Positions 14,488 through 32,151 of a stretch of DNA of 32,151 bases are shown piece after piece. The position numbers and the translations under genes are program-made. The DNA is from Myxococcales bacterium (lineage in GTDB: Bacteria > Myxococcota_A > Polyangia > Polyangiales > Polyangiaceae). Numbering within the stretch: position 1 is the first letter of the stretch; every line of letters begins with the position of its first letter. Where the stretch lies: contig JANXMC010000179.1 of NCBI GenBank assembly GCA_025354825.1, positions 1 through 32,151 of the forward strand, written 5' to 3'. The notes under the pieces are model-generated. The model was given only the letters and a program-made list of their open reading frames with translations. It was not told where the DNA came from and searched no databases.

Positions 14488-14925
14488 GTGACCGAATCGA
14501 CGCGACCCAAGTTACTGAACATCGCATCTCCCACACTGCGCGGAAAGATTGCTCTCGTCGTCGAGGACGTGGCGCCTCTCCGTCGTCTCGTCGTGCGCGT
14601 TCTCACACTCGCGGGGCTCATCGTTCGCGAGGCCGCCGACGGAATGGACGGGCTCGCCGCCTTTCAAACGGGGCCTGCCGACATCGTCGTGACCGACCTG
14701 CGTATGCCTCGCATGGGCGGCGTCGAGCTGGCGCGCGCGGTCTTGGCGACGAATGCCGACATGCGCATCGTCTTCATCACCGGATATGCAGATGCCACCG
14801 CCGCGCGGGAAATCGAGGAAGAATTTCCAACCTGTTTCGTCCTTAGGAAGCCGTTCGCCGCCAACGACCTTCGCCAAGCGCTCGAACGGGTCTCCGCTGC
14901 CGCGGAGCCGCCAAAAGCCGTGTAG
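14488..14925 (+). CDS. Stand-alone response-regulator receiver domain
   Basis: From a GTG at 14488 the protein is 145 residues: a short lead, one receiver domain and a 10-residue tail with no output domain. The acidic pair is Glu26/Asp27, the phospho-acceptor is Asp70 in VVTDLRMPRMGG, the switch Thr is Thr98 in FITGYAD, and the conserved Lys is Lys121 in LRKPF. All catalytic residues are intact. A TTG at 14389 would add 33 residues but overlap the divergent pcm gene, so it is not used. Like CheY or the stand-alone receivers of myxobacteria, it probably passes a phosphate signal by protein contact. The giant kinase gene begins 11 bp after its stop, so the two are almost certainly one transcript and the kinase may be its partner. 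No cognate histidine kinase is in the window. Confidence 0.88.
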   Translation: MTESTRPKLLNIASPTLRGKIALVVEDVAPLRRLVVRVLTLAGLIVREAADGMDGLAAFQTGPADIVVTDLRMPRMGGVELARAVLATNADMRIVFITGYADATAAREIEEEFPTCFVLRKPFAANDLRQALERVSAAAEPPKAV

Positions 14926-14936
14926 TCTGCAGACGA

Positions 14937-17900
14937 ATGAGGGGCACGTTCGAGGCGACGGAGTCCGAACTCGCGACGGGAGCGCGCGGCCGCTCTGCGC
15001 GAACCGTCGGCCCATACACCCTGCTCGCGCAGATCGGCGAGGGCGGAATGGGCGTCGTCTACCGCGCCTCGCACCCGAAGAGCGGCGTTCACGTCGCGCT
15101 GAAAACCGTGGCGGTTCCCGACGCGAGCCACCTCGCGGGGATGCGCCGCGAGATCGACGCGCTCCGCTGCGTGAACCACCCCGGCATCGTGCGAATCGTC
15201 GATGCGGGCGTCGAGGCGGGCGTCCCCTGGTACGCGATGGAGCTCCTCGACGGGCGAACGCTTCGCGACGTCGCCGACGAGCAGTGGAACCGAACCGGCA
15301 AAATGCCCTCATCGAACGATGCGCCGACGCGCGTCGCGCGCAAACCCGATAGCTCGACGACGCCTCGCCTCGAAAAGCCGATATCGGGCGTCACCAAGGC
15401 ATTACCATCTTCGCGCACACCCGAAATGGCCCGCGCGGCGGGGGGCAACCTGCGCAGCACGCTCACGCTTTTTCGCAAGCTCTGCGAGCCCCTCGCGTTT
15501 CTGCACGGCGAAGGGTTCGTTCATGGGGACTTAAAGCCGAGCAACGTCGTCCTTCGCGAGGATGGCACACCGGTGCTCGTCGACTTCGGCCTCGTCTGGC
15601 GCTTCGCCGGCGCGATGAGCCGCGAGATCATCGACGTCGCGGGGGTGCAGGCGGGAACCGCCGGCTACATGGCGCCCGAGCAGATCGCAGGCGAGCTCGT
15701 CGATGCGCGGGCCGATCTCTACGCCCTCGGGTGCATGCTCTACGAAGCCGTCACCGGCAGGCTCCCCTTCGTCGGCGCTCGCGCCATCGACGTGATTCAG
15801 CAGCATATCGGCGCGTCGCCTATTCCCCCTTCGCACTTGGTCGAAGGGGTTCCGACACGGCTCGAAGAGCTTATTTTAAGGCTTCTCGCGAAACGCCCGC
15901 GCGAACGTATTGGCCACTCCGACGCCGTCGTGACGGCGCTTCACGCCGCGGGCGCCGACATCGCGCCAGCGCGCGGCCCAGCCCCTCGTGCCTATTTGTA
16001 CCGCCCCGAGCTCTCTGGCCGCGACGCCGTCGTCGCCGAGCTTCGTACCCATCTCGTGGCGGCGCGCCGAGGCTCGGGAAGCCTCGCCGTCGTCGAGGGT
16101 GAAAGCGGTATTGGCAAAACGTACGTTGGAATGGAGCTCGCGCGCGTCGCCGCGTCCGACGGGATGCGCGTCATCGCGTGTGCGTGCAGGCCGCTCCGCC
16201 CGTCGCCCGGTCCGCGCGACGCACGCGGCGGCGCGACCACCGGCGACATCACCGACAACGCCAACGGCACGCCGCTCTACCCGTTTCGAACCGTCCTCGA
16301 AGCGGTCGCCGATCGCTGTCTCGAGGAGGGCGAGGCGACCACCGCGCGTCTCCTCGGCGCCCGCGCCACCGTGCTCGCCGAGATTGCGCCCGATCTCGCC
16401 GCTCTCCCCGGCGTGCGGGTGCACGGCTCACCGCCGCCTCTCCCCGCCGCGGCGGCGCAGCACCGGCTTCTCACGTATTTGGGCGATACGCTCACGGCCT
16501 TCGCGGCGGCGCGCCCGCTCTTCATCATCATCGATGATCTGCAATGGGCCGACGAGCTGTCGCTCCGTTTCCTAACGTCGCTCGGCGAGGCGCATTTTCG
16601 GCACGCGGGCGTTTTCTTGCTCGGCACGTGCCGTTCCGAAGAAATGGGGCGCGACGTTCGCGATCTGCTCGCCGCGCCGTTCGTGCACCGCGTCGCGCTT
16701 GGGCGCCTCGATTCGCTCACGGTGCGGCGCCTCACGAGCGACATGCTGGCTCTCGACGATCCGGGCGACGCTTTCATCGAGGCGCTCACGGAGAGCTCCG
16801 GAGGCAATCCGTTCTTCGTTGCCGAATACCTACGAACTGCGCTCGTCGAAGGGCTCCTTTACCGTGACGACGAAAGTCGTTGGCGCGTGCGCGGCACGAC
16901 GGCTTCCGACGCACCGACGCTTGCGCGACTGCCGCTCCCGCAGACGCTTCGGTCGCTCGCGGGCCGCCGTATCGAAGGTCTCTCGGCGACGGCGCGCGTC
17001 GTCGTCGACGTGGCGAGCGTCCTCGGTCGCGAGGTGTTCGGCGAGGCCGCATCCACCCTCGGTCGCCTCGCCGGCGCGCCCGACGAAGTGCTCCTTCCCG
17101 CGATCCAAGAGCTCTGCGCGCAGCAGATTCTCGAGGCGAGCGGCGACGGCTACCGCTTCATTCACGATAAGGTTCGCGAGGCGGCCTACGCGCTCATCGA
17201 CGCGCCGCGGAAGCGTGTTCTTCACAAAGCGGTCGCCCTCGAGATCGAGCGCGAGCTGACGCGCGATGCGCCGGTGGTTGCAACGCTTGCGGCCCCGTTC
17301 GCCGAGCTCGCCCACCACTTCAAGCTGGCCGGCGAGACCGAGAAAGCCGTGCACTACCTCGAGGCCGCAGGCACGCGGGCGCTCAAAAACTCGTCGAACC
17401 GCGAAGCCGTCGCCTATTTCCGCGACGCCCTCGCGTTTGTCGAGAACGACGCCTCCCTCGCCACGTCCGGGCGGCGCGCGTCGTGGGAGCGTCAGATCGG
17501 AGAGGCCTACCTGGGGCTCGGCCTTACGCAGGAGTCGCGCACCCATTTGATTCGCGCGGTGTCGCTCGTCGGGCGCCCGCTCCCGGCGACGAATTCACTC
17601 ATGGCCTTGGGGCTCATGGCCAACGCGCTGCTTCAAGCGGGGCACCGCATCGCGCCCGAGCGCATCACGCCGCGGGCGGCGGACGAGCGCGCGGCGCTTC
17701 TCGAAGCGACCCGCGCCTACGACCTCTTGATGCAAATCGCCTATCAAGACGGCGGCCCTATTCCGGTACTGCACGCAACGCTGTCGGCGTTGAACTTGGC
17801 CGAGCGCGTAGGCCCGTCACCGGAGCTCGCGCTCGCCTACGCCAACGCCCACGGCACGGCGGGCATCATCCCCCTCCACGGCCTCGCGGAGACGTACGCG

Positions 17901-18686
17901 CGCCGCGCGCGGGAGACGCTTCGCGCCGTTCCCGATCGCGCAGTCGAGACGTGGCTCCTCCTTATGAACGGTGTTTACCGCCTCGGCAGCGGCCGCTGGG
18001 AGGAAGCGCGCGAAGCGCTCGAAGAGGCCGCATCGATCGCCGAAGAGCTCGTGTTCAAGCGCCGTTGGGAGGAGGCGATTGGAACCTTGTCGGCATTGCA
18101 CTTCTTGCGCGGCGACTTCGAAAAAGCCCGTCTGGCGTGCGAGTCCTACTACGCGTCCACGCTCCGCGGCGACGCTCAAGGGCAATTTTGGGCGCTGCTG
18201 GGCCTCTCCCAAGCGGAGCACGTTCGCGGCAATCACGAGGCGGCCCTCGCGATCTTGGAGCGGGCCGAGCCGTTCGCCGCCACGCAGCCGGGGCGCCCGG
18301 CGGTTGCGTGGATGCACGCCGAAATGGCAATCAACCACCTACGCCTCGGCGACCTCAGCGCGGCCCGTGGCCGTGTCGATCAGGCGGACGCGCTTCTCCA
18401 AAAAGAGCCCCCCGTCGTCTACTTCGCGATCTACCCCTTGGGGCTCGTTGCGCACATTCACATCGAGCTTCGCCGCCCCGACGAGGCGCGCAAGGCGTGC
18501 GCGGCTCTCGAGCGCTTCTCCCGCATGTCACCGATCGCCAAGCCCCGCGCGCTCCTGAACCGCGGCAGGCTGCTTAGCCTCGAAGGCAAGAAGAGCGATG
18601 CCGCCCGCGCCTACCGTAAGAGCCTCGAGTCCGCACGCGCGCTCTCGATGCCGGTCGACGCCGACCTCGCATCGAAGCTCGTCTGA
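14937..18686 (+). CDS. Large Ser/Thr protein kinase fused to AAA ATPase and TPR region (PknK-like)
   Basis: This 1249-residue cytosolic protein has three parts. Residues 26-340 are a Hanks-type kinase: Gly loop IGEGGMGVVY, Lys56, Glu72, catalytic loop HGDLKPSN (Asp198, Asn203), DFG at 216-218 and GYMAPEQ. About 55 Ser/Thr/Pro-rich residues (about 115-170) are inserted between hinge and catalytic helix. HGD replaces HRD, so it is a non-RD kinase that may not need activation-loop phosphorylation. Residues about 356-800 form an AAA_16/STAND-type ATPase with Walker A GESGIGKT (388-395) and Walker B IIIDDLQWAD (530-539). The remainder is alpha-helical and TPR-like. This architecture is known from bacterial PknK-type and myxobacterial kinases that integrate signals and phosphorylate regulators. 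The small receiver gene just upstream is the likely functional neighbour. No DNA-binding C-terminal domain is visible. Confidence 0.9.
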   Translation: MRGTFEATESELATGARGRSARTVGPYTLLAQIGEGGMGVVYRASHPKSGVHVALKTVAVPDASHLAGMRREIDALRCVNHPGIVRIVDAGVEAGVPWYAMELLDGRTLRDVADEQWNRTGKMPSSNDAPTRVARKPDSSTTPRLEKPISGVTKALPSSRTPEMARAAGGNLRSTLTLFRKLCEPLAFLHGEGFVHGDLKPSNVVLREDGTPVLVDFGLVWRFAGAMSREIIDVAGVQAGTAGYMAPEQIAGELVDARADLYALGCMLYEAVTGRLPFVGARAIDVIQQHIGASPIPPSHLVEGVPTRLEELILRLLAKRPRERIGHSDAVVTALHAAGADIAPARGPAPRAYLYRPELSGRDAVVAELRTHLVAARRGSGSLAVVEGESGIGKTYVGMELARVAASDGMRVIACACRPLRPSPGPRDARGGATTGDITDNANGTPLYPFRTVLEAVADRCLEEGEATTARLLGARATVLAEIAPDLAALPGVRVHGSPPPLPAAAAQHRLLTYLGDTLTAFAAARPLFIIIDDLQWADELSLRFLTSLGEAHFRHAGVFLLGTCRSEEMGRDVRDLLAAPFVHRVALGRLDSLTVRRLTSDMLALDDPGDAFIEALTESSGGNPFFVAEYLRTALVEGLLYRDDESRWRVRGTTASDAPTLARLPLPQTLRSLAGRRIEGLSATARVVVDVASVLGREVFGEAASTLGRLAGAPDEVLLPAIQELCAQQILEASGDGYRFIHDKVREAAYALIDAPRKRVLHKAVALEIERELTRDAPVVATLAAPFAELAHHFKLAGETEKAVHYLEAAGTRALKNSSNREAVAYFRDALAFVENDASLATSGRRASWERQIGEAYLGLGLTQESRTHLIRAVSLVGRPLPATNSLMALGLMANALLQAGHRIAPERITPRAADERAALLEATRAYDLLMQIAYQDGGPIPVLHATLSALNLAERVGPSPELALAYANAHGTAGIIPLHGLAETYARRARETLRAVPDRAVETWLLLMNGVYRLGSGRWEEAREALEEAASIAEELVFKRRWEEAIGTLSALHFLRGDFEKARLACESYYASTLRGDAQGQFWALLGLSQAEHVRGNHEAALAILERAEPFAATQPGRPAVAWMHAEMAINHLRLGDLSAARGRVDQADALLQKEPPVVYFAIYPLGLVAHIHIELRRPDEARKACAALERFSRMSPIAKPRALLNRGRLLSLEGKKSDAARAYRKSLESARALSMPVDADLASKLV

Positions 18687-19068
18687 CTCGCGGATCCCTG
18701 TGCGGTAGATAAACCCCTAAGCGGATTATAAGAGAATAGCCCACATTTCTGCCGACCGCCCCTTGTGTGTAAAGGGCGATTTAGAACGATTGAGCGACCG
18801 TTTGTTAGCGAACCCGTGGCGTCCCAAGCGTCGTGTGGCACGCTAAGTCCGATCGTGGCTAGTTCGATATAGCCCGGCTGTAATCGACATTCGCAAAGTT
18901 ACAACATTTGACGCGGTCTACTTGGATGAGTGCCGTGGGCGCAGGTCTATGTGTGAATCGCACCGCATCCAGCACATTTCCGCATGTCGGCAGTCTCGGT
19001 GCGCCGGTCCGCTATCGGTGTAGGGCGGCGGTGTCGGAAGTGCAATTGTCGATCATAAAGATTCGATT
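18687..19068. other. Non-coding stretch between the two signalling sets
   Basis: About 380 bp without a credible gene, noticeably richer in A+T than its flanks. It contains a hairpin at 18757-18778 (CGCCCCTT and AAGGGCG with one bulged C, loop GTGTGTA). It lies about 70 bp after the kinase stop and is not followed by a T tract, so it is a weak terminator candidate at best. A second loose repeat pairs TTAGCG near 18806 with CGCTAA near 18841. No tRNA or known RNA fold was recognised. A minus-strand frame entering it from the kinase gene is a shadow. Confidence 0.4.
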
Positions 19069-19099
19069 TTGACAGCTCCGATTAAAATGACGTTATATT
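19069..19099 (+). promoter_or_regulatory. Near-consensus sigma-70 type promoter
   Basis: A perfect -35 box TTGACA at 19069-19074 is followed by TTATAT (19093-19098, spacer 18) or TATATT (19094-19099, spacer 19). Such a match is unusual in this GC-rich context. It would start transcription near 19106 and give a leader of about 60 bases before the TTG start at 19170, so it most likely drives the lipoprotein-kinase-TPR unit. Confidence 0.6.
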
Positions 19100-19169
19100 G
19101 ATAACGCTGAGTGCATTGCGCCGCGGGCGCAGATTGCGAATCTTGGCGACCGTTAAAGGGGAATGGCGT

Positions 19170-21239
19170 TTGGCAACGACGACATCTCGAAACCTGATTC
19201 GACTCTCGCTCGGCGCGCTCGCGCTCGTCGGCTGTCAGTCGTTCGCGAAGCTCGACGATCGCACGGCGGACCCACCGCCGCCGGGGTTGTGCGCACTGCC
19301 CACGGCGGGTGACGCTCAGCTGCGAATCGCGAACTTCGTTCCTACGGATGCGACCGTCGACTTCTGCATCAAGCCTGCAGGCGCGGCGAGCTACAGCCAC
19401 CCCGTGCTTCGAAACGCGGGGAGCGAGGCGGCCTGTCAGGACGGCCTCGCGTACAAGAAGGTCACGGCGCCGTTTGCCGTCGCGTCTGGCACGATCGACG
19501 TTAAGGTCGTTGCCGCGGGGGCGGGCGGCTGCGAGCAGACCGCGCTCGCCGAGAGCCTAAGCGTCGTGGTGCCGGCGGGGAGCGTGACGCAGCTCGTTCA
19601 TGCGGGAGGGAACGGCGAGGCCCCGCGCGTCGTGGTGCTCCGCGAAGGGGGCCCCGCGTCGAATCTGAAGGTGCGATTCGTCAATCTCATCGGAGGAATC
19701 GGCCCGCTGAACTTCGGCCTCGCATCGGCGGCTCGTGTGCCGACCACGATGTCCGTCAACGTCGCGGCCGACCCCATCCCCTTCGGAGCCACGCTTCCCG
19801 CGTCGGCCAAGGCCCTCACCGGATCGATCGACGAGCTCTCCTACTTAAGCATTCAGGCGACAGGTCTGTTCTTCGGCGCCTCGAAGGTAGGCGACAAGAA
19901 CGCCGTCGTCGCCATCGGCCCGGGGCGAATCAATGGCAAGTTCGATCTCTACGCCATCGGCGACCCTACCAACATCCGCTTTCCCCCGCGCGCGATGCTC
20001 TGCGACGAGGCCGCCACGGCCTCCCTCTTCGTCACGTGCATCGAGTCCGACCTCCCGTCGATCTCGTTCGAACTCTACGGCACGGCGCTCTATGGCTTGT
20101 ACGCAAAGCGCGCCGCAGAGCGAAGGCCGGTGCTCGCACGCGAGGTTGCAAAGAGCGATACCGACGTTCTCTGTCTCATCGACGTTTGGCGAAAAGAAGA
20201 CCGTCAGCTCTTCAAAGACGAAATCGCGAAGACCGGCCAATTCCCCTACATCGCCACCTTCGACTCGAACGCCGATACGCCCATCTCTGACCCTCGCGAC
20301 AAGGACGGCAAGCTCCCACCGGCGGTGACACCCGTCTCCTCGTGCGGCGACAACGCCGCCCTCGCCAATACGATGATCAACTGCCTGTCGAACAAGTGCA
20401 CGACGTCGAGCACTCCAGGTGACGACGCCGGCGGTCTGAACACGGGCGACTGCGTCTCCAGCGAGTGCATCTCGGAAGTCGTCCCCCTCGCGACGGGCGA
20501 CTTGAAGCAGCAAGGGTGCTTCGCGTGCGTCGTCTTCGATGCGATCGCCTACAAAACCTACGGTGAGGTGAAGGCCGACTGCTTCAACCCGGCGGGCGGC
20601 GGCACGTACTTCGATGGGCAGAATGGCAACATGATCCTCTCGAAGTTCCCCCTCTCGAACGTCGAAGGGTACGTCCTTCCCGCCGTCGGGCAGAAGCGGG
20701 TCATCGTCTCGGCGAGCGTCGAATACGAAGCGGGCAAGTCGATCGATGTGCACTGCGGCGTCCTCGATGGCATCCTCGAATCGCCCTTCAACTACAACGG
20801 CCCGTACAGCACCGCGCACGACCGCCAAGGGTATGCCGACGAGCAGGCACTCCAGGCGCAGCGCGTCACCGAGTGGGTGAAAAAGCGAAGCGGGTCGAAG
20901 CCGGCAATCGTCGCAGTGGGAATCGGATCGAGCATTGCCGACCTCGCGACCGGTATTCAGGATTTGAACCCGGCCACGCCGTCGGCACTTCTCGGATCGT
21001 TCGTCTCGGCGGAAGCGAGCGACTGGACGCCAAAGTGCACCGTCTGCGGCGCAGAGAACAACCTGTGCGACAAATCTCAGAACTACTGGGAGCACCGAAT
21101 CTTCCTCCACAACATCGTGAAGGACGCGGTCGTCTCTTCCGAGCGGCGCTACATGGATCCCATCGTTCCGGTCGCCAATTCGGCGCCCGTGCCGATGTCG
21201 GAGAACTTCGCGTACCGCGTGAAAGTGTTGCGCCAATGA
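19170..21239 (+). CDS. Lipoprotein with DUF4397-like domain and degenerate EEP (endonuclease/exonuclease/phosphatase) domain
   Basis: The 689-residue protein starts at a TTG at 19170: AAAGGGG lies at proper distance and the signal peptide then begins directly, ending in LALVGC (Cys22). The nearby ATG at 19163 is out of frame. The N-terminal third (AQLRIANFVPTDATVDFCI and after) looks like DUF4397, a beta-sandwich repeat of surface proteins. From about residue 330 the sequence follows the EEP fold. SDTDVLCLIDVWRKEDR aligns with the usual DVVCLQEVW, with Asp338 in place of Glu. GNMILSKFPL and an IDVHCGVL strand (His528) follow. The GDFN element reads GIGS (584-587), losing Asp and Asn, and the C-terminal block reads EHRIFL. 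The fold seems kept and the active site damaged, so a binding or sensing role is plausible. Many cysteines fit export. The kinase gene follows after 36 bp. Confidence 0.7.
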   Translation: MATTTSRNLIRLSLGALALVGCQSFAKLDDRTADPPPPGLCALPTAGDAQLRIANFVPTDATVDFCIKPAGAASYSHPVLRNAGSEAACQDGLAYKKVTAPFAVASGTIDVKVVAAGAGGCEQTALAESLSVVVPAGSVTQLVHAGGNGEAPRVVVLREGGPASNLKVRFVNLIGGIGPLNFGLASAARVPTTMSVNVAADPIPFGATLPASAKALTGSIDELSYLSIQATGLFFGASKVGDKNAVVAIGPGRINGKFDLYAIGDPTNIRFPPRAMLCDEAATASLFVTCIESDLPSISFELYGTALYGLYAKRAAERRPVLAREVAKSDTDVLCLIDVWRKEDRQLFKDEIAKTGQFPYIATFDSNADTPISDPRDKDGKLPPAVTPVSSCGDNAALANTMINCLSNKCTTSSTPGDDAGGLNTGDCVSSECISEVVPLATGDLKQQGCFACVVFDAIAYKTYGEVKADCFNPAGGGTYFDGQNGNMILSKFPLSNVEGYVLPAVGQKRVIVSASVEYEAGKSIDVHCGVLDGILESPFNYNGPYSTAHDRQGYADEQALQAQRVTEWVKKRSGSKPAIVAVGIGSSIADLATGIQDLNPATPSALLGSFVSAEASDWTPKCTVCGAENNLCDKSQNYWEHRIFLHNIVKDAVVSSERRYMDPIVPVANSAPVPMSENFAYRVKVLRQ

Positions 21240-21275
21240 CGGCCAACGGGGGGCCCATCCCATGAGCAGAACGTC

Positions 21276-23039
21276 ATGAACGCGCGTAGGTCCGACAGTG
21301 GTGTGGCGAGCGACGAGATACCCGCCTCCGAGGACGTGAGCCTCGATTCGGCTGCGATGAACGTAACGTCCGTGCGGCAAATTCCGCTCGCTCAGGCGGC
21401 TGTCGCGGCTGTCGCGGCTGTCGCGTCCGACGCGGGGCTGAGCGAGTCGATCCTCGGCGCGCACGCAGACGAAGCCAAGGCAGCTCTGGAAACGCTCGGC
21501 GTGGGGACGGTGGTCGATGGCAAGTACCGAATCGACGCGATTCTCGGTCGCGGCGCGATGGGCGTCGTCGTCTCAGCGACGCACCTCGATCTCCGAGAAA
21601 CCGTCGCCCTCAAGTTCTTGAATCTCCGAGTGGGGGCGAAGGGGGACGACTTTCATCTTCGGTTTCGGCGCGAGGCGCAGCTTTGCGCGAAGCTACGGAG
21701 CGAGCACGTGGCCCGCGTGATCGACGTCGGCGTGTGGCAGGAACGCACGCCGTACATGGTCATGGAACACCTCGCCGGCCACGACTTGAGCCAGATCATC
21801 AAGGCGCGTGGCCCGCTCCCGCTCGACGTCGCGCTCGACTACATCGTTCAGGTCTGCGTGGGGCTCGCCGAAGCGCACGGAATAGGCGTCGTCCACCGCG
21901 ATCTCAAACCGTCGAATCTGTTCATCACCCAGCGGAGCGACGGGTCCGACCTCGTGAAGATCCTCGATTTCGGCATTTCGAAATGGAGCGTCGAGGACGA
22001 CATCGGTGAGCTCACGCAGAGTGGCGTGGTGCTCGGCTCGCCGAAGTACATGGCGGTCGAGCAGCTTTTCGGCTCGGCGAACGTCGACTCCCGCGCCGAC
22101 GTTTGGTCGATCGGCGCGATCTTCTACGCGATGCTCTCGGGCAAATCGCCTTACGACTTTCCGACAATCACGCGCCTCTGCGCCGAGCTCGCGACGAACA
22201 ATCCACCGACGAGCCTCCGCGTCACGCGCCCCGAGGTGCCGCCCGCCCTCGATGCTGCGCTGATGCGGTGCTTCGAGCGTGATCGCGAACGCCGCGTCCA
22301 GAACGTGGGCGACCTCGCGGGCGATCTGCTCGATGCCGTCGATGCACCGTTCGCCGCGTCCGTCCGCGACAAGATCGCCGCGTCGCTGGATCCGAAGCGC
22401 GCGCGCGAGCCCGTAGGCCGCTCGAGCACGATGCACTCGCTTGGAACCGGGCAGTACCGCGCGTTGACATCGCTTTCGATGTCGAGCTCGGGCGTGTCCC
22501 AGGTCTCGTCCATGGCGAGAAGCGGCTCGGGCGCCGTCCTCGCGATCACGCCTGACATGGTCTCCACCAGCACGCCGCCCGTATCGAAACGGCGACGGGG
22601 TGTCGCTCTCGCCGGGCTCGCGGCCGGCGTCGTCGTGCTGGCCGCGTTCCTTGCCACCCGTTCGGAGACAGCGCCCTCGGCGGCCACGGTCTCGGCGGCA
22701 GGCGCGCCTCGAGAGACGGTAGCGGCATTGGCAAATACGTCCGTCGTTCTGGCGCTTCCGCAACAGGCCACGAGCTTCGCGGCCGTGGCCGCAGCGGCGG
22801 CGGACGCAGGCTTCGCGAATGCCCCTTTCGTGGCGTCGCCGTCCGACAACAAGCGGGCCGTCGCGCCCACTCGCCCGTCTCCTGCCGCGCACCCAGCTCC
22901 GGCGCCTGCCGTCGCGGCGCGGGCCGTGAATCCGCCCCCCGCCGCCGAGGCGGCCGCGGCGACGCCCGCCGCACCTATTTCTGCGCCCGCGCAAGAAACG
23001 CCCAAGAAGCGCGGTAATCCGTTGGAGGAACGCCAGTGA
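21276..23039 (+). CDS. Transmembrane Ser/Thr protein kinase
   Basis: The protein has 587 residues. After an 80-residue Ala-rich lead comes a Hanks-type kinase domain (about 84-355): Gly loop LGRGAMGVVV, Lys113, Glu133, catalytic loop HRDLKPSN (Asp209, Asn214), DFG at 231-233 and activation segment GSPKYMAVEQ, where the usual APE/PPE is AVE. All catalytic residues are present, so it should be an active RD kinase. A Ser-rich juxtamembrane stretch (about 380-435) is followed by one transmembrane helix (about 443-461). An Ala/Pro-rich tail of about 125 residues lies in the periplasm and has no recognised sensor fold. This kinase-in, low-complexity-out layout is common in myxobacteria. The gene ends in GTGA: its TGA overlaps the GTG start of the next gene by 4 bp, a sign of translational coupling. 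A start at Met28 is possible. Confidence 0.92.
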   Translation: MNARRSDSGVASDEIPASEDVSLDSAAMNVTSVRQIPLAQAAVAAVAAVASDAGLSESILGAHADEAKAALETLGVGTVVDGKYRIDAILGRGAMGVVVSATHLDLRETVALKFLNLRVGAKGDDFHLRFRREAQLCAKLRSEHVARVIDVGVWQERTPYMVMEHLAGHDLSQIIKARGPLPLDVALDYIVQVCVGLAEAHGIGVVHRDLKPSNLFITQRSDGSDLVKILDFGISKWSVEDDIGELTQSGVVLGSPKYMAVEQLFGSANVDSRADVWSIGAIFYAMLSGKSPYDFPTITRLCAELATNNPPTSLRVTRPEVPPALDAALMRCFERDRERRVQNVGDLAGDLLDAVDAPFAASVRDKIAASLDPKRAREPVGRSSTMHSLGTGQYRALTSLSMSSSGVSQVSSMARSGSGAVLAITPDMVSTSTPPVSKRRRGVALAGLAAGVVVLAAFLATRSETAPSAATVSAAGAPRETVAALANTSVVLALPQQATSFAAVAAAAADAGFANAPFVASPSDNKRAVAPTRPSPAAHPAPAPAVAARAVNPPPAAEAAAATPAAPISAPAQETPKKRGNPLEERQ

Positions 23040-24064
23040 AACGTCGTCTCTCTCGCTCCTCGAACCCTTGCTATTTGGTATTCGCGACGCTCATCGCATC
23101 GGTATGTCTCGGCGGCCCAGCGCGCGCCGCCGACACGAAACCCGCGTCCGAAGGCGGCGTGACCACCGACAACCGCGCCCTCGCCGAAGTGCTCTTCTTC
23201 ACGGCCCGCGGCATGATGGAAGCCCACCGCTACCCCGAGGCTTGCCAGAAGCTCGCCGAGAGCTACAGGCTCGATCCAGCCGCAGGAACGTTGCTGAATC
23301 TCGCGGTTTGCCATGAGAAACAGGGGCGAATCGCGAGCGCGTGGGGTGAGTTCACGCAGTCCGCCACGGACGCGAAACATGCCAATCGTCCGGATCGCGA
23401 AGAGCTCGCGCGCGAGCACATCGCGGCCCTCGAGCCCGACCTGCCGATGATGGCGATCGACGTCCCCGCGACGGTGAAAGTGGCGGGCCTCGAGCTCGTA
23501 CGAAACGGCGTCACGCTCTCGGCGGCTGCATGGGACACGGAGCTCCCGGTCGACCCGGGAGAGGTCGAAATCGTTTCACGCGCGCCAGGCTATTTGCCTT
23601 TCACGCTCAAAGTGAAAATCGAAAAGCGGCAACATCTCAAGGTGAGCCTTCAGCCCCTCGAGCTCGCGCCCCTCGCCCCCCAAGACGTGGTCTTCTGGAC
23701 GCCGAAGCGCAAAGTCGGCGCGGCCGTCGGCGTCGTAGGCATTGCCGCCGTCGCGGTCGGCACGGTCGTCGGCCTGGGCGTGCTCGACAATAGGCAAAAG
23801 AGCGACGCTGCGTGCCCCTCCATCGACGGCCACCTCCGCTGCACGAGCGAAGGCGCCGACGCGATGTCGAAAGCGCATACGGGCGCCTGGATTTCCGACA
23901 TCGCCTTTGGCGTGGGCGCAGTCGCCGTCGCGACGAGCGTTTACCTGTTCGTCACGGGCAGCCAAGAGCGCGCCGAGCCCACGCCGCCGAAGAGCACGGC
24001 GTGGACGTTCCGCGTGAACGCGTCGCCCCTCGGCGCGCGCGGCGTGGTCGAAGGGCGCTTTTAG
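23036..24064 (+). CDS. Exported TPR-like protein with PEGA-like domain and membrane helices
   Basis: The 342-residue protein starts at a GTG that overlaps the kinase stop by 4 bp. It has a signal peptide (to about residue 32, ARA|AD) and a TPR-like helical part (about 44-130, with ALAEVLFFTARGMMEAHRYPEAC and GTLLNLAVCHEKQGR). A beta-rich part (about 138-208, VPGEV-like turns and APGYLPF) recalls PEGA domains. Two hydrophobic helices follow (about 228-248 and 288-307), separated by a loop with two cysteines. Proteins of this kind are regularly encoded next to Ser/Thr kinases in myxobacteria, and their function is not established. It may be the periplasmic partner or a substrate of the kinase. 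It ends exactly where the convergent FAD oxidoreductase gene ends, with no base between the stop codons. Confidence 0.8.
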   Translation: MKRRLSRSSNPCYLVFATLIASVCLGGPARAADTKPASEGGVTTDNRALAEVLFFTARGMMEAHRYPEACQKLAESYRLDPAAGTLLNLAVCHEKQGRIASAWGEFTQSATDAKHANRPDREELAREHIAALEPDLPMMAIDVPATVKVAGLELVRNGVTLSAAAWDTELPVDPGEVEIVSRAPGYLPFTLKVKIEKRQHLKVSLQPLELAPLAPQDVVFWTPKRKVGAAVGVVGIAAVAVGTVVGLGVLDNRQKSDAACPSIDGHLRCTSEGADAMSKAHTGAWISDIAFGVGAVAVATSVYLFVTGSQERAEPTPPKSTAWTFRVNASPLGARGVVEGRF

Positions 24065-25768
24065 TCAGCCGCCTAGAGCGCCTTCGACAGCGTTCTTGAT
24101 CTTGTTCAACCAACCGAGCGGCTTCGCGATTTCGTTCGTCCACGGCAGGCCGTTCTCGAAGCGCTCTTTATCCATGAAGCGGAGCGGAATGAGAATGTCC
24201 GGATCGTGGAGTGGGAATATCTTGCAGTAGGGCTGACTCGAATTTTCGGCCGAGAGAATGGCATTCACCGCGCGGCGCGCCGCCTCGTTGGCGGCCTCCA
24301 TGCAGGCCAAATCGGTGTGCGTTCGGATGTAGTCCGACGCCAAGTACAAATTCGAAATAGCCGTGTACGCGTCGGGGCGGAGGTGCCACGAGTCGATGAG
24401 GTTCACGAGCAGCGGCTCGAGATTCACCTCCGTGTGCGGGTTCTTCTTCCCGGGCTCGATGTCCGAATCGATGAACCACGAATGGCGGTTCTCGTCTTTC
24501 AGGAGCACTTTGCCATCGACGTTGAGCCCCTGCTTCAGCTGCTCCCAGACTTCCCAGATGATTTCGTCGCGGGTGCAGTCCTTCGCCGGGCCGTGGCGTA
24601 TCCCGGCGCTCGTCCAGTCGGAGACGTCGACGGAGATCACGCCGCGAACCTTGCCGTCGCCGTAGTTCTTCAAATCGAAGTTCGGCCAAAACTGCTGCTG
24701 CGAGAGCGACGTGAGTGCCCACGGCGATTCGAGGTACATCTCGTGCCCCGCGAGAATCGGCACGTCCTCGAACAGGTAGAACTGGATGCCGTTCATCCAG
24801 TTCACCTGTTCGGCCAGCGGCGCGAGATCGGCGAGCATCGGGTCGGCCGCGATGAGGTCCTTCGTCACGAGCCCCGAGATGACTTCGACCGGGAGCGCGC
24901 AAATATAGTAGTCGCCCGTCACGGTGACGGGGCCAGTGCCGTCGTTGATTACGACGCCGGTGATCGCCTCCTTGGGGCAGAGGATCTGCTCGACCACCGT
25001 CCCAAATCGGTAATCGACCCCCTTCGAACGTAGGTACTCGAGCCAAGGGTTGATCCAGACGTCGTTCGTCGGCCCGTTGAGAATGCGGTCGCTGCTCTCG
25101 CCGATGGTGGCGACGTTGAGCATCAACTGAATGCCGATATCGCCGATGGTCTTCGTGTTCGCGAGCTCCGCTTTGCTCGCCACCAACGTGCGCGTCGCAC
25201 CGATGGCGAGGTACGTCTGGTAGGCCTTCGAGCGGTTCGCCGCGTCGACGAACTCCCACCACCCGACGCGCTCGTATTCGAGGAGGCGGCGCTCCTGGCA
25301 GCTCGTGAGAACTTGCCATATTTTGCTGAAGAAGAACTCGAAGTCGTCCGTCGTGAGGCCGAGCCCTTCGAACTCTTTCGGCATTTCCAAAAGGACTTTG
25401 AGATCGGCCCACGATTGAGGAAATCGTGAGAGCGCGATGAGCGGCGTTCGGGCCGTACGGGCAAACTCTTCGCGCGCGACCGAGACGAGATTGCCCAGCA
25501 CGCCGTTCGGATTCCCTTCGAACGGGATACGCCCCATCGTGTCGGGAAGGTGCTTGTAAAAGCCCGGTACGAAGCGGAATCCGTGCTCTCCCGGCAAGTC
25601 GGGGCGCCCCTCTTTACCGCTGTCCGGCACGGGCATGCTGCGCGCTTTGCCGCCCGCAATGCGCTTGCGCTCGTAGACGACGACGTCGAAGCCACGTTCG
25701 ATGAGCTCGTGCGCGGCGGTCATTCCTGCGACGCCTCCGCCGAGAACGACGACCTTCTTCTTCCCCAT
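24065..25768 (-). CDS. FAD-dependent oxidoreductase, phytoene desaturase / hydroxysqualene dehydroxylase-like
   Basis: The 567-residue protein starts with a Rossmann dinucleotide-binding motif VVVLGGGVAGMTAAHEL and YERKRIAGGKARS. The closing segment LYLASDYIRTHTDLACMEAANEAARRA is the flavin-contact region of the amine-oxidase/phytoene-desaturase superfamily. It has no signal peptide and probably acts at the membrane face on an isoprenoid or similar hydrophobic substrate. Its length is slightly above CrtI and HpnE. No prenyltransferase, squalene/phytoene synthase or cyclase gene lies nearby, so a carotenoid or hopanoid role cannot be assigned. AGGGGGAA lies about 5 bases before the ATG. A palindrome (25788-25799) sits about 20 bp upstream. 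Aside from length, nothing is odd. Confidence 0.85.
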   Translation of the reverse strand: MGKKKVVVLGGGVAGMTAAHELIERGFDVVVYERKRIAGGKARSMPVPDSGKEGRPDLPGEHGFRFVPGFYKHLPDTMGRIPFEGNPNGVLGNLVSVAREEFARTARTPLIALSRFPQSWADLKVLLEMPKEFEGLGLTTDDFEFFFSKIWQVLTSCQERRLLEYERVGWWEFVDAANRSKAYQTYLAIGATRTLVASKAELANTKTIGDIGIQLMLNVATIGESSDRILNGPTNDVWINPWLEYLRSKGVDYRFGTVVEQILCPKEAITGVVINDGTGPVTVTGDYYICALPVEVISGLVTKDLIAADPMLADLAPLAEQVNWMNGIQFYLFEDVPILAGHEMYLESPWALTSLSQQQFWPNFDLKNYGDGKVRGVISVDVSDWTSAGIRHGPAKDCTRDEIIWEVWEQLKQGLNVDGKVLLKDENRHSWFIDSDIEPGKKNPHTEVNLEPLLVNLIDSWHLRPDAYTAISNLYLASDYIRTHTDLACMEAANEAARRAVNAILSAENSSQPYCKIFPLHDPDILIPLRFMDKERFENGLPWTNEIAKPLGWLNKIKNAVEGALGG

Positions 25769-25787
25769 CCGGCTTCCCCCTTTTTGG

Positions 25788-25799
25788 TAGTCGCACGAC
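25788..25799. promoter_or_regulatory. Dyad AGTCG-CA-CGACT upstream of the FAD oxidoreductase gene
   Basis: AGTCG at 25788-25792 and CGACT at 25795-25799 form a perfect 5-bp dyad with a two-base centre, about 20 bp upstream of the oxidoreductase start codon. It could be an operator overlapping the leader. The short length makes chance occurrence possible. Confidence 0.2.
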
Positions 25800-25949
25800 T
25801 CGCGTTCGTCGCCAAAGCGGGCGAACGACGATGAGGCTACCGTCAGAGCCAGGGGGCCAGTCTAGTTGGCACTTGCTTGTGTAAGCGCGATTGCGAGGTG
25901 GATGTCGGGAGGCCGTCCACGTTGGGACGCGAGGGGCGAAGGCCTCAGA

Positions 25950-26477
25950 TTAGGCGGATTTCACCGCAAGAACCTGCGCCGCGAGGAGCGCGCCTACCGA
26001 CTCGCGGGGAAAGGGCCACGCGTAGATGAGCGACAGATGGGGATACTGAAGGCGCAAGGCGGCTATCGCGTCGGGAAGATCGCGCTCGGCGTGAATGCCA
26101 CCTTCCGTCACCATCGTCGTGATGACCGTAATCGCCGTCACACCCGCTTCCGCGAGAGCGCGGACCGCGGCATCGAGAGACGGCGCGCAGAACTCGTTGT
26201 ACGCCGTGTGCACCGCGTGCGTGGGGAGGTCGCGCGCGAGGAGTCGGGCGAGGGCGAGGATCCCCTCGCGGTAGGGGTCGTTCTCCGGCGATCGTGGCCA
26301 ATCGCGAACACGGGTATCGAGCGCGAGCTCCTGGGCGGACGGCGGAGCACCCGTCGCCCGACGCTGCCCCTCGAGGCGCCGCAGCTGCTCGATGAGCGCC
26401 CGCGGCGTATCGCGCGCCGGCACGCCGTGGCCAACGAGGAGAACGGCGGGCTTCGGTGCTGCGGCGGTCGTGGTCAT
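25950..26477 (-). CDS. CbiX/SirB-type sirohydrochlorin chelatase-like protein
   Basis: The 175-residue protein has the marks of the small class II chelatases. VLLVGHG is at the N-terminus with His17, and ITTMVTEGGIHAERDLPDAI holds the second metal/porphyrin-contact His129; YPHLSLIYAWPF follows. CbiX inserts cobalt, and SirB iron, into sirohydrochlorin, on the way to cobalamin or siroheme. The central part (about 35-70) is longer and less typical, and no cobalamin or siroheme gene lies near, so the metal and even the tetrapyrrole substrate are uncertain. It is divergent from the RibD-like reductase gene, with only 59 bp between the start codons that must hold both promoters. Confidence 0.7.
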   Translation of the reverse strand: MTTTAAAPKPAVLLVGHGVPARDTPRALIEQLRRLEGQRRATGAPPSAQELALDTRVRDWPRSPENDPYREGILALARLLARDLPTHAVHTAYNEFCAPSLDAAVRALAEAGVTAITVITTMVTEGGIHAERDLPDAIAALRLQYPHLSLIYAWPFPRESVGALLAAQVLAVKSA

Positions 26478-26536
26478 GGGGCGCGTCGAGATCTAGCATC
26501 TACTGCGACGCGTTCACTCTCCCGACGAGCTTCTCG

Positions 26537-27289
26537 ATGACAATGACAAACCGCGCGCGACCCCGCGTCTTCATCAACATGGCCTCGAGCCTCGATGGGA
26601 AGACCAACCCCACGAAGGCCCTCCGCGCCGACGTCCCTTTTACGATGTCGCGTCACGACGAAGATTCGAAGCGCATGCTCCGTATTCGCGCGACGGCAGG
26701 CGCGATCGTCATCGGGGCAGGAAACCTCAAAGCCGACGACCCCAATCTCGCCGTCGCGCCGGCCGAGCGCGCACGTCGCTCCTCTTTGGGCACGCACGAG
26801 CCCCTTCGCGTGATCGTCACGTCCCACGCCAAAGGGCTTCACGCGGGATATGCCGCGTTCGACCCCACGCGCGGCGGCGAGACGGTGGTGGCGCACGCCG
26901 CGGGCATCTCCGACGAGACGCGCGCCCTGCTCGCCCCCCACGCCACGCTCGTCGAGCTTGGCGACGAATCGGTCGATATCGCACGACTGCTCGATTGGCT
27001 ACTTCGCGAGCGCGACGTCGGAACCGTCCTCTGCGAAGGTGGTGGCATTCTGAATGCCGCATTCTTTGCCGCCCGCGCGGTCGACTCGATGTACCTCACG
27101 CTCGTACCCCGTGTGCTCGGGGGCGGCACCGCAGCGACCGTCGTGGCTGGATCCGGATTCGCGGTAGCGAGCTATCAAGGTCAGATCGTCGCAAATCTCC
27201 AAACGATCCCCGACGCGACCCTCGGAGACGTTGATCGCGCTGGCGATGAGCTCTTCCTTCGATACGATTTCGCCTGGCCCGAGGCGTGA
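26537..27289 (+). CDS. RibD C-terminal / dihydrofolate-reductase-fold reductase
   Basis: The protein has 250 residues from the ATG at 26537. An upstream start at 26456 would overlap the divergent chelatase gene. RVFINMASSLDGKTNP at the N-terminus, AIVIGAGNLKADDPNL (the G-x-D-D-P-x-L substrate/cofactor loop), TVLCEGGGILNAAFFAARAVD and LTLVPRVLGGG are the signatures of the RibD reductase domain. That domain uses NADPH to reduce a ribosylamino-pyrimidine in riboflavin synthesis. The deaminase half of RibD is missing and no other rib gene is present. It may therefore be a stand-alone diaminohydroxyphosphoribosyl-type reductase or an unrelated NADPH reductase of the same fold. It is cytosolic. A nested inverted repeat begins 11 bp after its stop. 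Confidence 0.83.
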   Translation: MTMTNRARPRVFINMASSLDGKTNPTKALRADVPFTMSRHDEDSKRMLRIRATAGAIVIGAGNLKADDPNLAVAPAERARRSSLGTHEPLRVIVTSHAKGLHAGYAAFDPTRGGETVVAHAAGISDETRALLAPHATLVELGDESVDIARLLDWLLRERDVGTVLCEGGGILNAAFFAARAVDSMYLTLVPRVLGGGTAATVVAGSGFAVASYQGQIVANLQTIPDATLGDVDRAGDELFLRYDFAWPEA

Positions 27290-27300
27290 AACCCCTTTGA

Positions 27301-27356
27301 GCACCGACAATCGCACGCTGTAAGCGCGTGTAATCTAACGCGTCGCAGTACGGTGC
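27301..27356. repeat. Nested inverted repeat between the reductase and isomerase genes
   Basis: The outer arms GCACCG (27301-27306) and CGGTGC (27351-27356) enclose inner arms CGCGT (27325-27329) and ACGCG (27338-27342) with loop GTAATCTA. It starts 11 bp after the reductase stop. It could fold in RNA as part of a terminator or leader, although no T tract follows. Confidence 0.35.
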
Positions 27357-27490
27357 CTTGCGGCTGAGCTTTTCCGCTGCTAGCACCCTGTCGCTCTCAC
27401 TGCGACACCGCTGTTCAAACGGTCGTGGCGAGCGGAGTGGCCCGTGCGGCCTTCATCACCGGTTATCTAATTCGATTAAGGGGAGTCTCT

Positions 27491-29947
27491 ATGGTGCGTT
27501 CGCTTCGACGACGCGGCATTACCGCCGCTGCTGCGCTTATGGTGGGTGCGGTCCTCGCGGCCTGTTCGGGCGCTCCGGACGATTCCCAAGATCAGTCGGC
27601 CAGCGCGTCGGCCGTGCCCTACACGTTTTCCATACTCCGTGCCGGCAACCGCTACGGCGCTCTCACGGGCGATTCGTACGTCGATACCGTCCAACCGGTA
27701 CTCGGCAGCCGCTGCGCCGTTTGCCACTCGTGCACGAACGGCCCCTGCCAATTGAACATGACGTCCTACGCGGCCCTCACGCGCGGCATATCGCCCGTGA
27801 ACCCGTACAAGTTCGGCCTTTTTGACGGCAAGTCGACGCGCGTGAGCGACAACCGCACCACGGCCGATTGGCGTAGTCGCGGCTTCACCAGCATTCTCCC
27901 CGACGGCATCGCGTCGCCGCAAGACTCGGTTCTCTACAAGGCGTTGCAGCTGGGCGATTTGAACGTGCCCTCCGCCGACGGCGCGGCCGAAACGGGCGCG
28001 TTCACGACGGCCAAGGCGCGGGCGCTCGCCGCCTCTCACGACGCGGGCGACTACGTCTGTCCCGCCACCGGTCGTGACTATACGGCGCTTAAAAGCAAAT
28101 ACCCCATGGGCGGCATGCCGTGGGCGCTCCCGCGCGTCGAAGGGGCCGAGCGCGGCGTCCTCGAGAGCTGGGTTCTCGCAGGGGCGCAAGGCCCCGCGGC
28201 AAGCGCGCAGACGACGCTCACCACCCCCGAGACGACGCCGCTGACGGCATCGGATCCGGTGGCGATGGTCACGGCGTGGGAAACGTTCTTGAACGGTAGT
28301 AGCAACGAGTCACAGCTCGTTGCCCGGTACATCTACGAGCACGCGTTTCAGGCGAACATCTCGTTCATCGAAAACCCGGGCGAGTACTACCGCATCGTCC
28401 GCTCGCGCACGGCGCCTCCGGCGGCCATCGACCGCATCGTCACCGACACACCGATGGAGTCGCCGGGCGCACTTCGCCCCTATTACAGGCTCGAGAAGAA
28501 CGATCGCCTCATCGAAGGCAAGACCCATATTGCGTGGACGCTCGGTCTCAAGGATTTGGCGCATTTTCAAGCGCTTTTCACGAGCAAGCCGTGGACCGTG
28601 CGCACGATGCCGGGCTACACGACGGGCAATCCGTTCGTCTACTTCGATGCCATTCCGGCGGATATCCGGTCGCAATGGATGATCGAAAACTCGCGAATGG
28701 TTTACCAATCGTTCGCCCGCGGTCCCATCTGCATGATTCAGGCGGCGACCTATGCCGTAGACGAGTACTTCTGGATCTGGTTCCTCCGCCCCGAGTCCGA
28801 CCCGAGCGTTCAGACGCCCCACCTCGGGTTGAGCAGTTACGATTCCTTCTTCAGCAAAGAGGGGAACATCGTCAGCGGCATTCCCGTCCTCGGCGACAAG
28901 TACGGTGAGCCGACCTACCGCGCCGCCTTCGAGGCGACACTTCGCAAGCAGAAGCCCAACGGCATCGGCGTGAGCGACATCTGGACGGGCGAGGGGACGA
29001 ATCCCAACGCATGGCTCACCGTGCATCGCCATCAGGTGAGCACCGACGTGACGACGGGTCTCGAGCGCCCCATCACCGGTATGCCGAGAAGCGTGTGGCT
29101 CATCAGCTATGCCAACTTCGAACGCATGTATTACAACGCCGCCGCAACCTATAAATACTGGGGCTCGCTCCGCCATCAGAACGATACGTTCAACTGGCAA
29201 ACGTACACGCGCACCGAGGCGGAAGACCTCTACGCATCGCTCTTTCCCAAGCAGCAGTACCGCGATTCGCTCCGCGACCGGTTCACGAGCTTCAGCGGGA
29301 AGATCTACAACAAGCTCTTTACCGATTACGCGTGGGGCCGCCCCTCCGTCGACAGCTACCCCAGCGAAGATCTCCTCGGTCGCGCGGTCTACGGCCGCAT
29401 GGGCGCCGGCGTCATCGTCTCGGAAGATCGCCTGAATCACTGGCCGAACGACGCCGCGCCCACGGGAATTCCCGCGAGCGTCGCGTCGGCGGCCGATTTC
29501 GAGGCGGGGCTTCGGACGCTCACTGCGCAGCCGGCGGCGTATGGCAAATTGATGCCGAACGTCGTTCACGTTCGCGTGGCTGGCGAGCACCTTTACACGC
29601 TCCTCGCGAACCGCGGTTACAACGGCGACAAGAACCCGCTCAACGAAGCCGCAGCGCGCGACCGGAACGACGATCAGCTCGTAGCCATTCCGGGCTTCAC
29701 CGGATTCGAGGCGCACCAGTTCTTCGATATCTCCTACGAGCAGGCGGCGCCGTTCCTCCAGGCGATCGGCGCCATGAAGACGGTGGACGATTGGCGCGCC
29801 GTTCGTAAGGCGTACGGAATCGCGCGCACCAGCACGCGCTTTTGGCCCTTCGTCGACTGGCTCCACACGTGGATGGGGCTCCATATGCCGGTGGAAGCGG
29901 GCCTTCTCGAGCTTCGCTTCTACGATAAGGACGAGACGCCGTACTGA
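27491..29947 (+). CDS. cti: Fatty acid cis/trans isomerase (heme-type lipoprotein)
   Basis: The 818-residue protein starts at the ATG at 27491, where AGGGGAG lies five bases upstream. A signal peptide of lipoprotein type ends in VLAAC (Cys25). The heme-c site CAVCH (Cys75, Cys78, His79) is followed by the typical CTNGPCQLNMTSYAALTRG. Further family blocks include SPGALRPYYRLEKNDRLI, MIENSRMVYQSFARGPIC and a C-terminal ELRFYDKDETPY. Cti converts cis- into trans-unsaturated acyl chains of membrane lipids in the periplasm and stiffens the membrane under solvent or heat stress. The known enzymes are a little shorter (about 760-780). A lipobox instead of a plain Sec signal is a notable point: the protein may be anchored next to its lipid substrate. 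A peroxiredoxin gene follows 95 bp downstream. Confidence 0.93.
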   Translation: MVRSLRRRGITAAAALMVGAVLAACSGAPDDSQDQSASASAVPYTFSILRAGNRYGALTGDSYVDTVQPVLGSRCAVCHSCTNGPCQLNMTSYAALTRGISPVNPYKFGLFDGKSTRVSDNRTTADWRSRGFTSILPDGIASPQDSVLYKALQLGDLNVPSADGAAETGAFTTAKARALAASHDAGDYVCPATGRDYTALKSKYPMGGMPWALPRVEGAERGVLESWVLAGAQGPAASAQTTLTTPETTPLTASDPVAMVTAWETFLNGSSNESQLVARYIYEHAFQANISFIENPGEYYRIVRSRTAPPAAIDRIVTDTPMESPGALRPYYRLEKNDRLIEGKTHIAWTLGLKDLAHFQALFTSKPWTVRTMPGYTTGNPFVYFDAIPADIRSQWMIENSRMVYQSFARGPICMIQAATYAVDEYFWIWFLRPESDPSVQTPHLGLSSYDSFFSKEGNIVSGIPVLGDKYGEPTYRAAFEATLRKQKPNGIGVSDIWTGEGTNPNAWLTVHRHQVSTDVTTGLERPITGMPRSVWLISYANFERMYYNAAATYKYWGSLRHQNDTFNWQTYTRTEAEDLYASLFPKQQYRDSLRDRFTSFSGKIYNKLFTDYAWGRPSVDSYPSEDLLGRAVYGRMGAGVIVSEDRLNHWPNDAAPTGIPASVASAADFEAGLRTLTAQPAAYGKLMPNVVHVRVAGEHLYTLLANRGYNGDKNPLNEAAARDRNDDQLVAIPGFTGFEAHQFFDISYEQAAPFLQAIGAMKTVDDWRAVRKAYGIARTSTRFWPFVDWLHTWMGLHMPVEAGLLELRFYDKDETPY

Positions 29948-29965
29948 GCCCACCGAACTTTCGGC

Positions 29966-30026
29966 CGGATGCGTGCTAGGGAAGACGAAGGTCACGTACC
30001 CCACCTTCTCTTACGTTTCGCATCCG
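29966..30026. repeat. Nested inverted repeat between the isomerase and peroxiredoxin genes
   Basis: A perfect 8-bp outer pair, CGGATGCG (29966-29973) and CGCATCCG (30019-30026), encloses an inner 6-bp pair, GAAGGT (29987-29992) and ACCTTC (30003-30008), with a 10-base loop. It fills most of the 95-bp gap. It could be a terminator for the isomerase gene, an RNA leader of the peroxiredoxin gene, or an operator pair. Confidence 0.5.
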
Positions 30027-30042
30027 CCGGGAGACACGGGCT

Positions 30043-30627
30043 ATGAGAATTTCGCGTAACCGACTCCTCACGATTCTCGCGGTATTTGCCCTGCTGGGCG
30101 CGGCCGTGTCGGGCACGTTCGCCATGAACGGCTGCTCGACCCCCAAGCGCCCCGACGGCGGCATTGGCCTCCTTTCGAAGGGGGCGCCCGCGCCCGACCT
30201 CGAAGGGCACGACGCACAAGGGCGCGCCGTGCGCCTCTCGGCGAGCGCCGGGAAACCGCGGATCGTCTATTTTTATCCAAAAGACGGCACGCCGGGCTGT
30301 ACCAAAGAAGCCTGCGCCTTTCGCGACGCCTTCACGCGATTCGAAACCGAAGGCGTCGTCATCTTCGGCGTCTCGCGGGACTCGGAAGAGAGCCACCGGG
30401 CGTTTCGCAAAGAGCACAACTTGCCATTCCCACTCGTGTCCGACGAATCGGGAGTTGCGCAACGCGCCTACGGCGTATCGACGTTCCTCGGAATGCCGTC
30501 GCGCGTCACCTTCCTCGTAAGCCCCGAAGGGACGATCGCGCGCGTCTATCCCGACGTCGATCCCGGCGTGCACGCCGACGAAGTGCTCGCGGACGCCCGC
30601 GCGCTCAAGGTCGCGGCGCACCCGTAG
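30043..30627 (+). CDS. bcp: Bcp/AhpC-TSA-type peroxiredoxin, exported
   Basis: The 194-residue protein has an N-terminal hydrophobic signal (about residues 8-27) ending near MNGC (Cys31). This lipobox is not canonical, so it may be a lipoprotein, a secreted protein or membrane anchored. The thioredoxin-fold part has APAPDLEGHDAQGRAVRLS, VYFYPKDGTPGCTKEACAFRD and FGVSRDSEESHRAFR. Cys86 is the peroxidatic cysteine in the TPGCTKEAC motif, and Cys91 is the resolving cysteine of the Bcp type with four residues between. It reduces peroxides, including lipid hydroperoxides, with thiol donors. Placement outside the cytoplasm beside a membrane-lipid isomerase suggests protection of membrane lipids. 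That link is inference. The gene has its own upstream leader with nested repeats. Confidence 0.85.
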   Translation: MRISRNRLLTILAVFALLGAAVSGTFAMNGCSTPKRPDGGIGLLSKGAPAPDLEGHDAQGRAVRLSASAGKPRIVYFYPKDGTPGCTKEACAFRDAFTRFETEGVVIFGVSRDSEESHRAFRKEHNLPFPLVSDESGVAQRAYGVSTFLGMPSRVTFLVSPEGTIARVYPDVDPGVHADEVLADARALKVAAHP

Positions 30628-30671
30628 CTACACCGACGCGATCGAAGAGGAGAGGGTCGAGAGGAAAGGGA

Positions 30672-30707
30672 GGCGGGGGAGGCGGGGGAGGCGGGGGAGG
30701 CGGGGAG
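30672..30707 (+). repeat. Short GC-rich tandem repeat, GGCGGGGGA x about 4
   Basis: Three exact copies and one shortened copy of the nonamer GGCGGGGGA lie in the intergenic region after the peroxiredoxin gene. The period is not a multiple of a helical turn and no reading frame covers it. Slippage could vary the number of copies between strains. Confidence 0.85.
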
Positions 30708-30869
30708 CGTTGAGGGAGGTGAGATCTTGTGTGCAGAGCGCATGAAACCGGGAATGTGCCTCAGCGCCCTGAAAACCGGGTTCGTCTCGCGTCGATGAAA
30801 GAGGGGATGAGGGCCGTCGTCCGTTCAGGGGACGGGGGGCGGCTCGGAGGGGGCGTGCGCGGGCGGGGC

Positions 30870-30917
30870 TAGGCGCTACAGTGTCGCCTATTACCTTGGG
30901 CCTCGTTTTTGGCCCAA
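30870..30917. promoter_or_regulatory. Two adjacent perfect hairpins in the leader of the membrane protein gene
   Basis: TAGGCG/CGCCTA (30870-30875 and 30885-30890, loop 9) is followed after five bases by TTGGGCC/GGCCCAA (30896-30902 and 30911-30917, loop TCGTTTTT). The second ends 34 bp before the ATG. They may be RNA hairpins in the leader or an incomplete attenuator; the T run lies in a loop rather than after a stem. Confidence 0.45.
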
Positions 30918-30951
30918 TGCCGTTCCCTTCGTCCACGAGGCTACCGCTCCC

Positions 30952-31869
30952 ATGGTTACTGCTGCCCCCGCGGCGTTCATGCCCCGTGTTCGCTGGTCGT
31001 GGCTCTCGAGCCCGAAGGCCGACGTTCTTTGGAATCTAGCGCCGTTCTGGGTTGGCTATTTGATTGCCGCGTTTCTGTGGGGGGCGCGCGACCAAGGCGG
31101 CATTGCCGAGAACGCCGCGCTGAACTTCAGCGTAGGCGGGCGCGCCATTCACTTAGGGCTGTTCGCGTTCATCCTTTACGGCCCGCTCGTCGATGCGCCG
31201 CACCTCTGGGCGACGATCGCGCGGACCTATACTGACCCCGAAGAGTGGGCCGCGCGCCGCCGCCTCTTTTTGGGCTCGCTCGTCTGGTTTCTCATCGGGC
31301 CGGCGGTGATTCTCCTCCCGTATGCCATCACGGCGATTGCCCACTTGCCCGTGGGCGCGGCGTCGATCGGCTGGGTGGCGTGGGGTCACTTCTTTACGTT
31401 TTACGCGCTCTTTCACGTCAATAAGCAGCATTGGGGCTTCGTCGCGCTCTACAAGCGGAAGAATGGCGATCTTGCCAATCCCCTCGAGAACAAAGTCGAC
31501 GAGCTCTTCTTCTACGTCTCGATTTGGATCCCTTACGTTGGTTGGATGACGTCGCCGTGGTTTCGTGACCCCGACGGCTCTCCCCTTTCGTGGGCACAAA
31601 CGGCCATTGGCGGGACGACGATCGGCGGCGTTCTAAACCCGTTTTGCCACGTCGCGTTTTTCGTCGTCTGCGCCGCGTATAGCGGTTTTCAAATCCTGCA
31701 GTGGCGCCGAGGCCTTCCGCGTAATGGGCCGAAGCTGGTTTACCTCGCGACGATCATCCCGCTTCAGTACGTCGCGTTCATGATTCACCCGTTCGTGGCG
31801 GCGTTCTGGATCATCACCAGGCTGCAAGGCATGACCACGCCGATGCCGAGCCCCACGACGAGCATATAG
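30952..31869 (+). CDS. Multi-pass membrane protein of unknown function, probably 3'-truncated
   Basis: The 305-codon frame codes for about seven hydrophobic helices with charged loops. I do not recognise a named family. Notable are GPLVDAPHLWATIARTY and a His/aromatic-rich stretch near residues 145-175 (WGHFFTFYALFHVNKQHWGFVALYKRK), which could bind metal or a cofactor. The RBS-like GAGG is about 12 bases before the ATG. The protein stays plausible up to about FMIHPFVAAFWIIT (near 31818). After that comes the odd tail RLQGMTTPMPSPTTSI, whose coding DNA is the complement of good MFS transporter sequence. I infer that its real C-terminus is missing. It has no obvious functional link to the peroxiredoxin gene upstream. 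Confidence 0.7.
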   Translation: MVTAAPAAFMPRVRWSWLSSPKADVLWNLAPFWVGYLIAAFLWGARDQGGIAENAALNFSVGGRAIHLGLFAFILYGPLVDAPHLWATIARTYTDPEEWAARRRLFLGSLVWFLIGPAVILLPYAITAIAHLPVGAASIGWVAWGHFFTFYALFHVNKQHWGFVALYKRKNGDLANPLENKVDELFFYVSIWIPYVGWMTSPWFRDPDGSPLSWAQTAIGGTTIGGVLNPFCHVAFFVVCAAYSGFQILQWRRGLPRNGPKLVYLATIIPLQYVAFMIHPFVAAFWIITRLQGMTTPMPSPTTSI

Positions 31870-32151
31870 AGCGTGGAAATCAGCGGCGGCGTTGCGGCGT
31901 CGATCGTGGCGAGCATGGCGAAGCCCGCGATCGTGGCGATGATGCCGAGCTGGATCAGGCCTTTCACCCGGCCGAGCTTGCGCGCGATCTGGCCGCCGGT
32001 GAACGCGCCGATGCAGTTGGCGCCGAGATAGGGCACGATGAGCGTGCCGGACAGCGAGGCGTCCGCGCCACGCACGAGTTGGAAGAACAGCGGCAATAGG
32101 AAGGTGGCCCCGAACATGGCGCCGCTGTTGAGCGCCGCGATCAGCACGCCG
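31785..32151 (-). CDS. DHA2-type MFS transporter, internal fragment (edge and apparent C-terminal truncation)
   Basis: The minus-strand frame enters from the right edge and ends at a TGA at 31787-31785, about 121 codons. It reads as four membrane helices of a drug:H+ antiporter of the EmrB/QacA (DHA2) family: FLLPLFFQLVRGADASLSGTL, a GGQIARKLGRVKGL loop (the conserved motif between helices) and GLGIGVVMPCSLVMIQNA. In the family MIQNA is followed by a further stretch and more helices. Here only ATNG and a stop follow. So it lacks both its beginning (outside the window) and its natural end. The lost end coincides with the lost end of the convergent membrane protein gene. It could be an acquired piece or an assembly joint. 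Confidence 0.75.
   Translation of the reverse strand, partial: GVLIAALNSGAMFGATFLLPLFFQLVRGADASLSGTLIVPYLGANCIGAFTGGQIARKLGRVKGLIQLGIIATIAGFAMLATIDAATPPLISTLYMLVVGLGIGVVMPCSLVMIQNAATNG

Follow-up and report, generated by a model that had tools for sequence, protein, structure and literature searches.

The window analyzed here was the whole of contig C276 (32,151 bp), which belongs to a MAG comprising 859 contigs and 8.98 Mb, estimated to be 96.3% complete and 4.59% contaminated. Two convergent ORFs were found at the end of this contig. The plus-strand ORF (positions 30952 to 31869; 305 amino acids [aa], confirmed by the ORF listing) was predicted to encode a membrane protein, and the minus-strand ORF (positions 31785 to 32150; 121 aa), with its 5' end open at the contig end, was annotated as encoding part of a DHA2-family transporter. 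No Rfam families were found between positions 30500 and 32151. A preliminary description of this DNA had proposed that the two proteins lose their C termini at a shared point, and such a break was present within the interval that it gave: both reading frames were broken at 31796/31797, and homology to full-length relatives was lost there for both proteins. The features around this position are listed in Table 1.

Table 1. Features at the end of the contig, with the evidence on which each was delimited
Feature	Positions	Strand	Evidence or remark
Truncated membrane protein gene, genuine part (about 281 residues), lacking the C-terminal part	30952..31796	+	Homolog comparison
End of the minus-strand ORF (TNG and stop), read as artifactual	31785..31796	-	Host sequence in the transporter's frame; the intact copy reads MIQNAAERRDVGS, then continues
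Junction, very probably chimeric	31796..31797	.	Uninterrupted identity to L004 (JANYFG010000012.1) begins at 31797
Tail, read as foreign: 118 codons from inside a DHA2-family MFS transporter gene of Rhodospirillales origin	31797..32151	-	DNA identity and Pfam
3' end of the plus-strand ORF, read as artifactual: antisense of the DHA2 fragment, AAFWIITRLQGMTTPMPSPTTSI	31798..31869	+	Wholly inside the tail

Compared to Pfam, the minus-strand ORF matched MFS_1 (E = 5.7e-11); its match to the NCBIfam DHA2 model TIGR00711 was weak and below the cutoff. A search of species-representative genomes with the 121-aa fragment led to JANYFG010000012.1 (L004), a contig of a Rhodospirillales MAG, and the further matches were to other Rhodospirillales MAGs, at 48 to 68%, and to one distant Microbacterium. 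At the DNA level, the tail was identical to L004 at 355 of 355 bases, up to the last base of the window (E = 5e-183, far beyond chance), and to the left of 31797 identity dropped abruptly to the level of chance (18/60 bases). This comparison directly showed a junction between two unrelated sequences, as the preliminary description had suspected. The matching stretch in L004 sits inside an intact gene encoding a 515-aa DHA2 transporter, where the contig is unbroken, and this transporter aligned with six other Rhodospirillales homologs over nearly the whole protein (56 to 72%). These six were themselves full length, with stop-to-stop frames of 530 to 563 aa, and all other relatives of comparable length came from Rhodospirillales MAGs. 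None of these homologs had the early stop seen in the window, which is therefore not a trait of the family. At the break, the intact copy in L004 reads MIQNAAERRD..., and the minus-strand protein keeps its natural sequence as far as MIQNAA. Odd residues before its stop had been noted earlier and are present, but there are three (TNG) rather than four, and the natural sequence extends one residue beyond the MIQNA previously given. The tail is thus like a DHA2-family MFS efflux transporter (EmrB type, TIGR00711; MFS_1) in that it encodes about 118 residues of one, but it is only an internal fragment, and we read it as not belonging to the window's organism.

The plus-strand membrane protein had no family in Pfam or NCBIfam searches. 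Distant homologs were found in 38 of 183 other genomes of the order, and no close copy was found among 184 order-level genomes, the best matches showing 37 to 43% identity over part of the protein. In full-length alignment, relatives in related genomes ran about 80 to 100 residues past the end of the window protein, and in this additional C-terminal part HYxxDxxIWR was conserved, a motif missing from the window protein. Because the relatives continue to HYxxDxxIWR, the host gene was also cut short at the join. The break in the plus-strand protein exists but does not lie near position 31818, where it had been placed: the protein's own sequence ends at about residue 282 (HPFV), and the sequence from 31798 is antisense to the transporter gene, so that the stretch AAFWIITRLQ... 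is already foreign. The last ~24 residues of this ORF derive from the tail. The homologs share an N-terminal region with a D-x-x-H motif, followed by RTY-x-D and the C-terminal HYxxDxxIWR, and positions 30952 to 31796 may encode a member of an undescribed family, judging from these sequence comparisons.

Apart from the tail, the L004 locus shared little with the window's genome, and the window shared little with the L004 genome. When the 10.4-kb L004 locus was compared with the window's genome, the tail match and only six short hits (69 to 81% identity) were found. A candidate second copy in contig C688 was rejected, as the match was short and weak (52 bp, 81%) and was not a copy. Nothing in window positions 1 to 20000 matched the L004 genome; in positions 20000 to 32151, only the tail and one 65-bp hit at 82% did. 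The tetranucleotide log-ratio per base was +0.091 for the tail, compared with a mean of +0.104 for L004 and a mean of -0.108 and a maximum of +0.022 for the 89 segments of the window body; the tail composition therefore fits the L004 locus and lies outside all 89 body segments, although the profiles were trained on the same body and L004 segments, which flatters the test and makes it supporting evidence only. A carboxylase-type protein encoded in the window body had relatives at 64 to 71% in three family and order genomes. For the tail, the nearest homologs in the 38 other family and order genomes were at 23 to 36% identity.

These results indicate, with a probability of roughly 95%, that the contig is a chimera of metagenome assembly. 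The sequence from 1 to 31796 would be the MAG's own DNA, and the 355 bp from 31797 to 32151 would be a piece from inside a Rhodospirillales DHA2 transporter gene that was wrongly attached at the contig end; most probably, the tail was joined to the contig end of another organism by a mistake of the assembler. The preliminary description had considered a chimera to be as likely as a real recombination event. The junction and the possibility of a chimera were both borne out, but the equal odds were not: a chimera has become much the stronger reading, since the tail matches a gene of another MAG at 100% identity, reaches the contig end after only 355 bp, and has no continuation in the window's genome. 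The contig ends inside the foreign piece, and no other contig of its own genome carries the adjoining foreign sequence.

A real and very recent transfer between distant lineages, in which illegitimate recombination placed part of a Rhodospirillales transporter gene within the membrane protein gene and broke it, would also account for the clean junction, and a true insertion would yield both truncations too. Such an event would, however, need perfect identity between distant lineages, as there are zero differences across the 355 bp, and a contig end falling by chance within 355 bp of the junction. It would also have to accommodate that a genome that is 96% complete lacks the remainder of the transporter gene and the rest of its Rhodospirillales locus, and that the other family and order genomes have no relative of the tail above 36% identity. 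In addition, casual inspection of the last kilobases showed no sign of a mobile element. Horizontal transfer is therefore improbable. Still less credible is the reverse arrangement, in which the transporter fragment would belong natively to the window's genome and the chimeric contig would be the Rhodospirillales one. In its favor, both are MAG contigs, but this reading was contradicted by the intact 515-aa partner gene and its full-length homologs, to which it aligns end to end; in addition, the composition of the tail matches the partner, and homologs in the window's own order are only distant. A search for the exact junction sequence in viral contigs found no occurrence, a result of little weight.

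Short-read assembly of metagenomes often yields chimeric contigs. As an assembly chimera, the window resembles other intergenome chimeric contigs from short-read metagenomes in that two unrelated genomes meet at one join, the foreign tail is short and lies at the end of the contig, and the bin is fragmented; nothing notable differs, and the partner is in a public MAG, so that the join can be pinned to the base. We infer that the join was made by the assembler, and it may have arisen from a chimeric read or fragment or, with a short-read assembler, from paired-end local extension of the contig end. In length, the tail corresponds to about one library fragment, and the name of the partner's record carries a k141 tag, as is typical of MEGAHIT. 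In one benchmark, MEGAHIT produced 22.15 chimeric contigs per genome, versus 2.63 for SPAdes (PMC11261854). The identity at 355 of 355 bases implies that the Rhodospirillales donor very probably lived in the same sample.

The early ends of both proteins are products of the join, and given that the join is chimeric, the two apparently truncated genes are an artifact. The implications are confined to quality control: the last 355 bp should be cut off, so that the contig ends at 31796, and the two truncated proteins should not be annotated or taken as pseudogenes or as gene transfer. No biology is to be inferred from positions 31797 to 32151 or from the end of either ORF. Other contig ends of the same MAG may carry short foreign tails as well.

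Two other features were observed in the window body. An ORF at positions 27425 to 29947 on the plus strand was annotated, from a Pfam match with E = 1.4e-119, as encoding a fatty acid cis/trans isomerase (CTI). CTI was rare in the order, with a homolog (30% identity) in only 1 of the 38 other family and order genomes, and the gene was possibly acquired. Between a gene encoding a peroxiredoxin-like protein and the membrane protein gene, positions 30668 to 30705 contained a perfect short tandem array of 4.2 copies of GGGAGGCGG.
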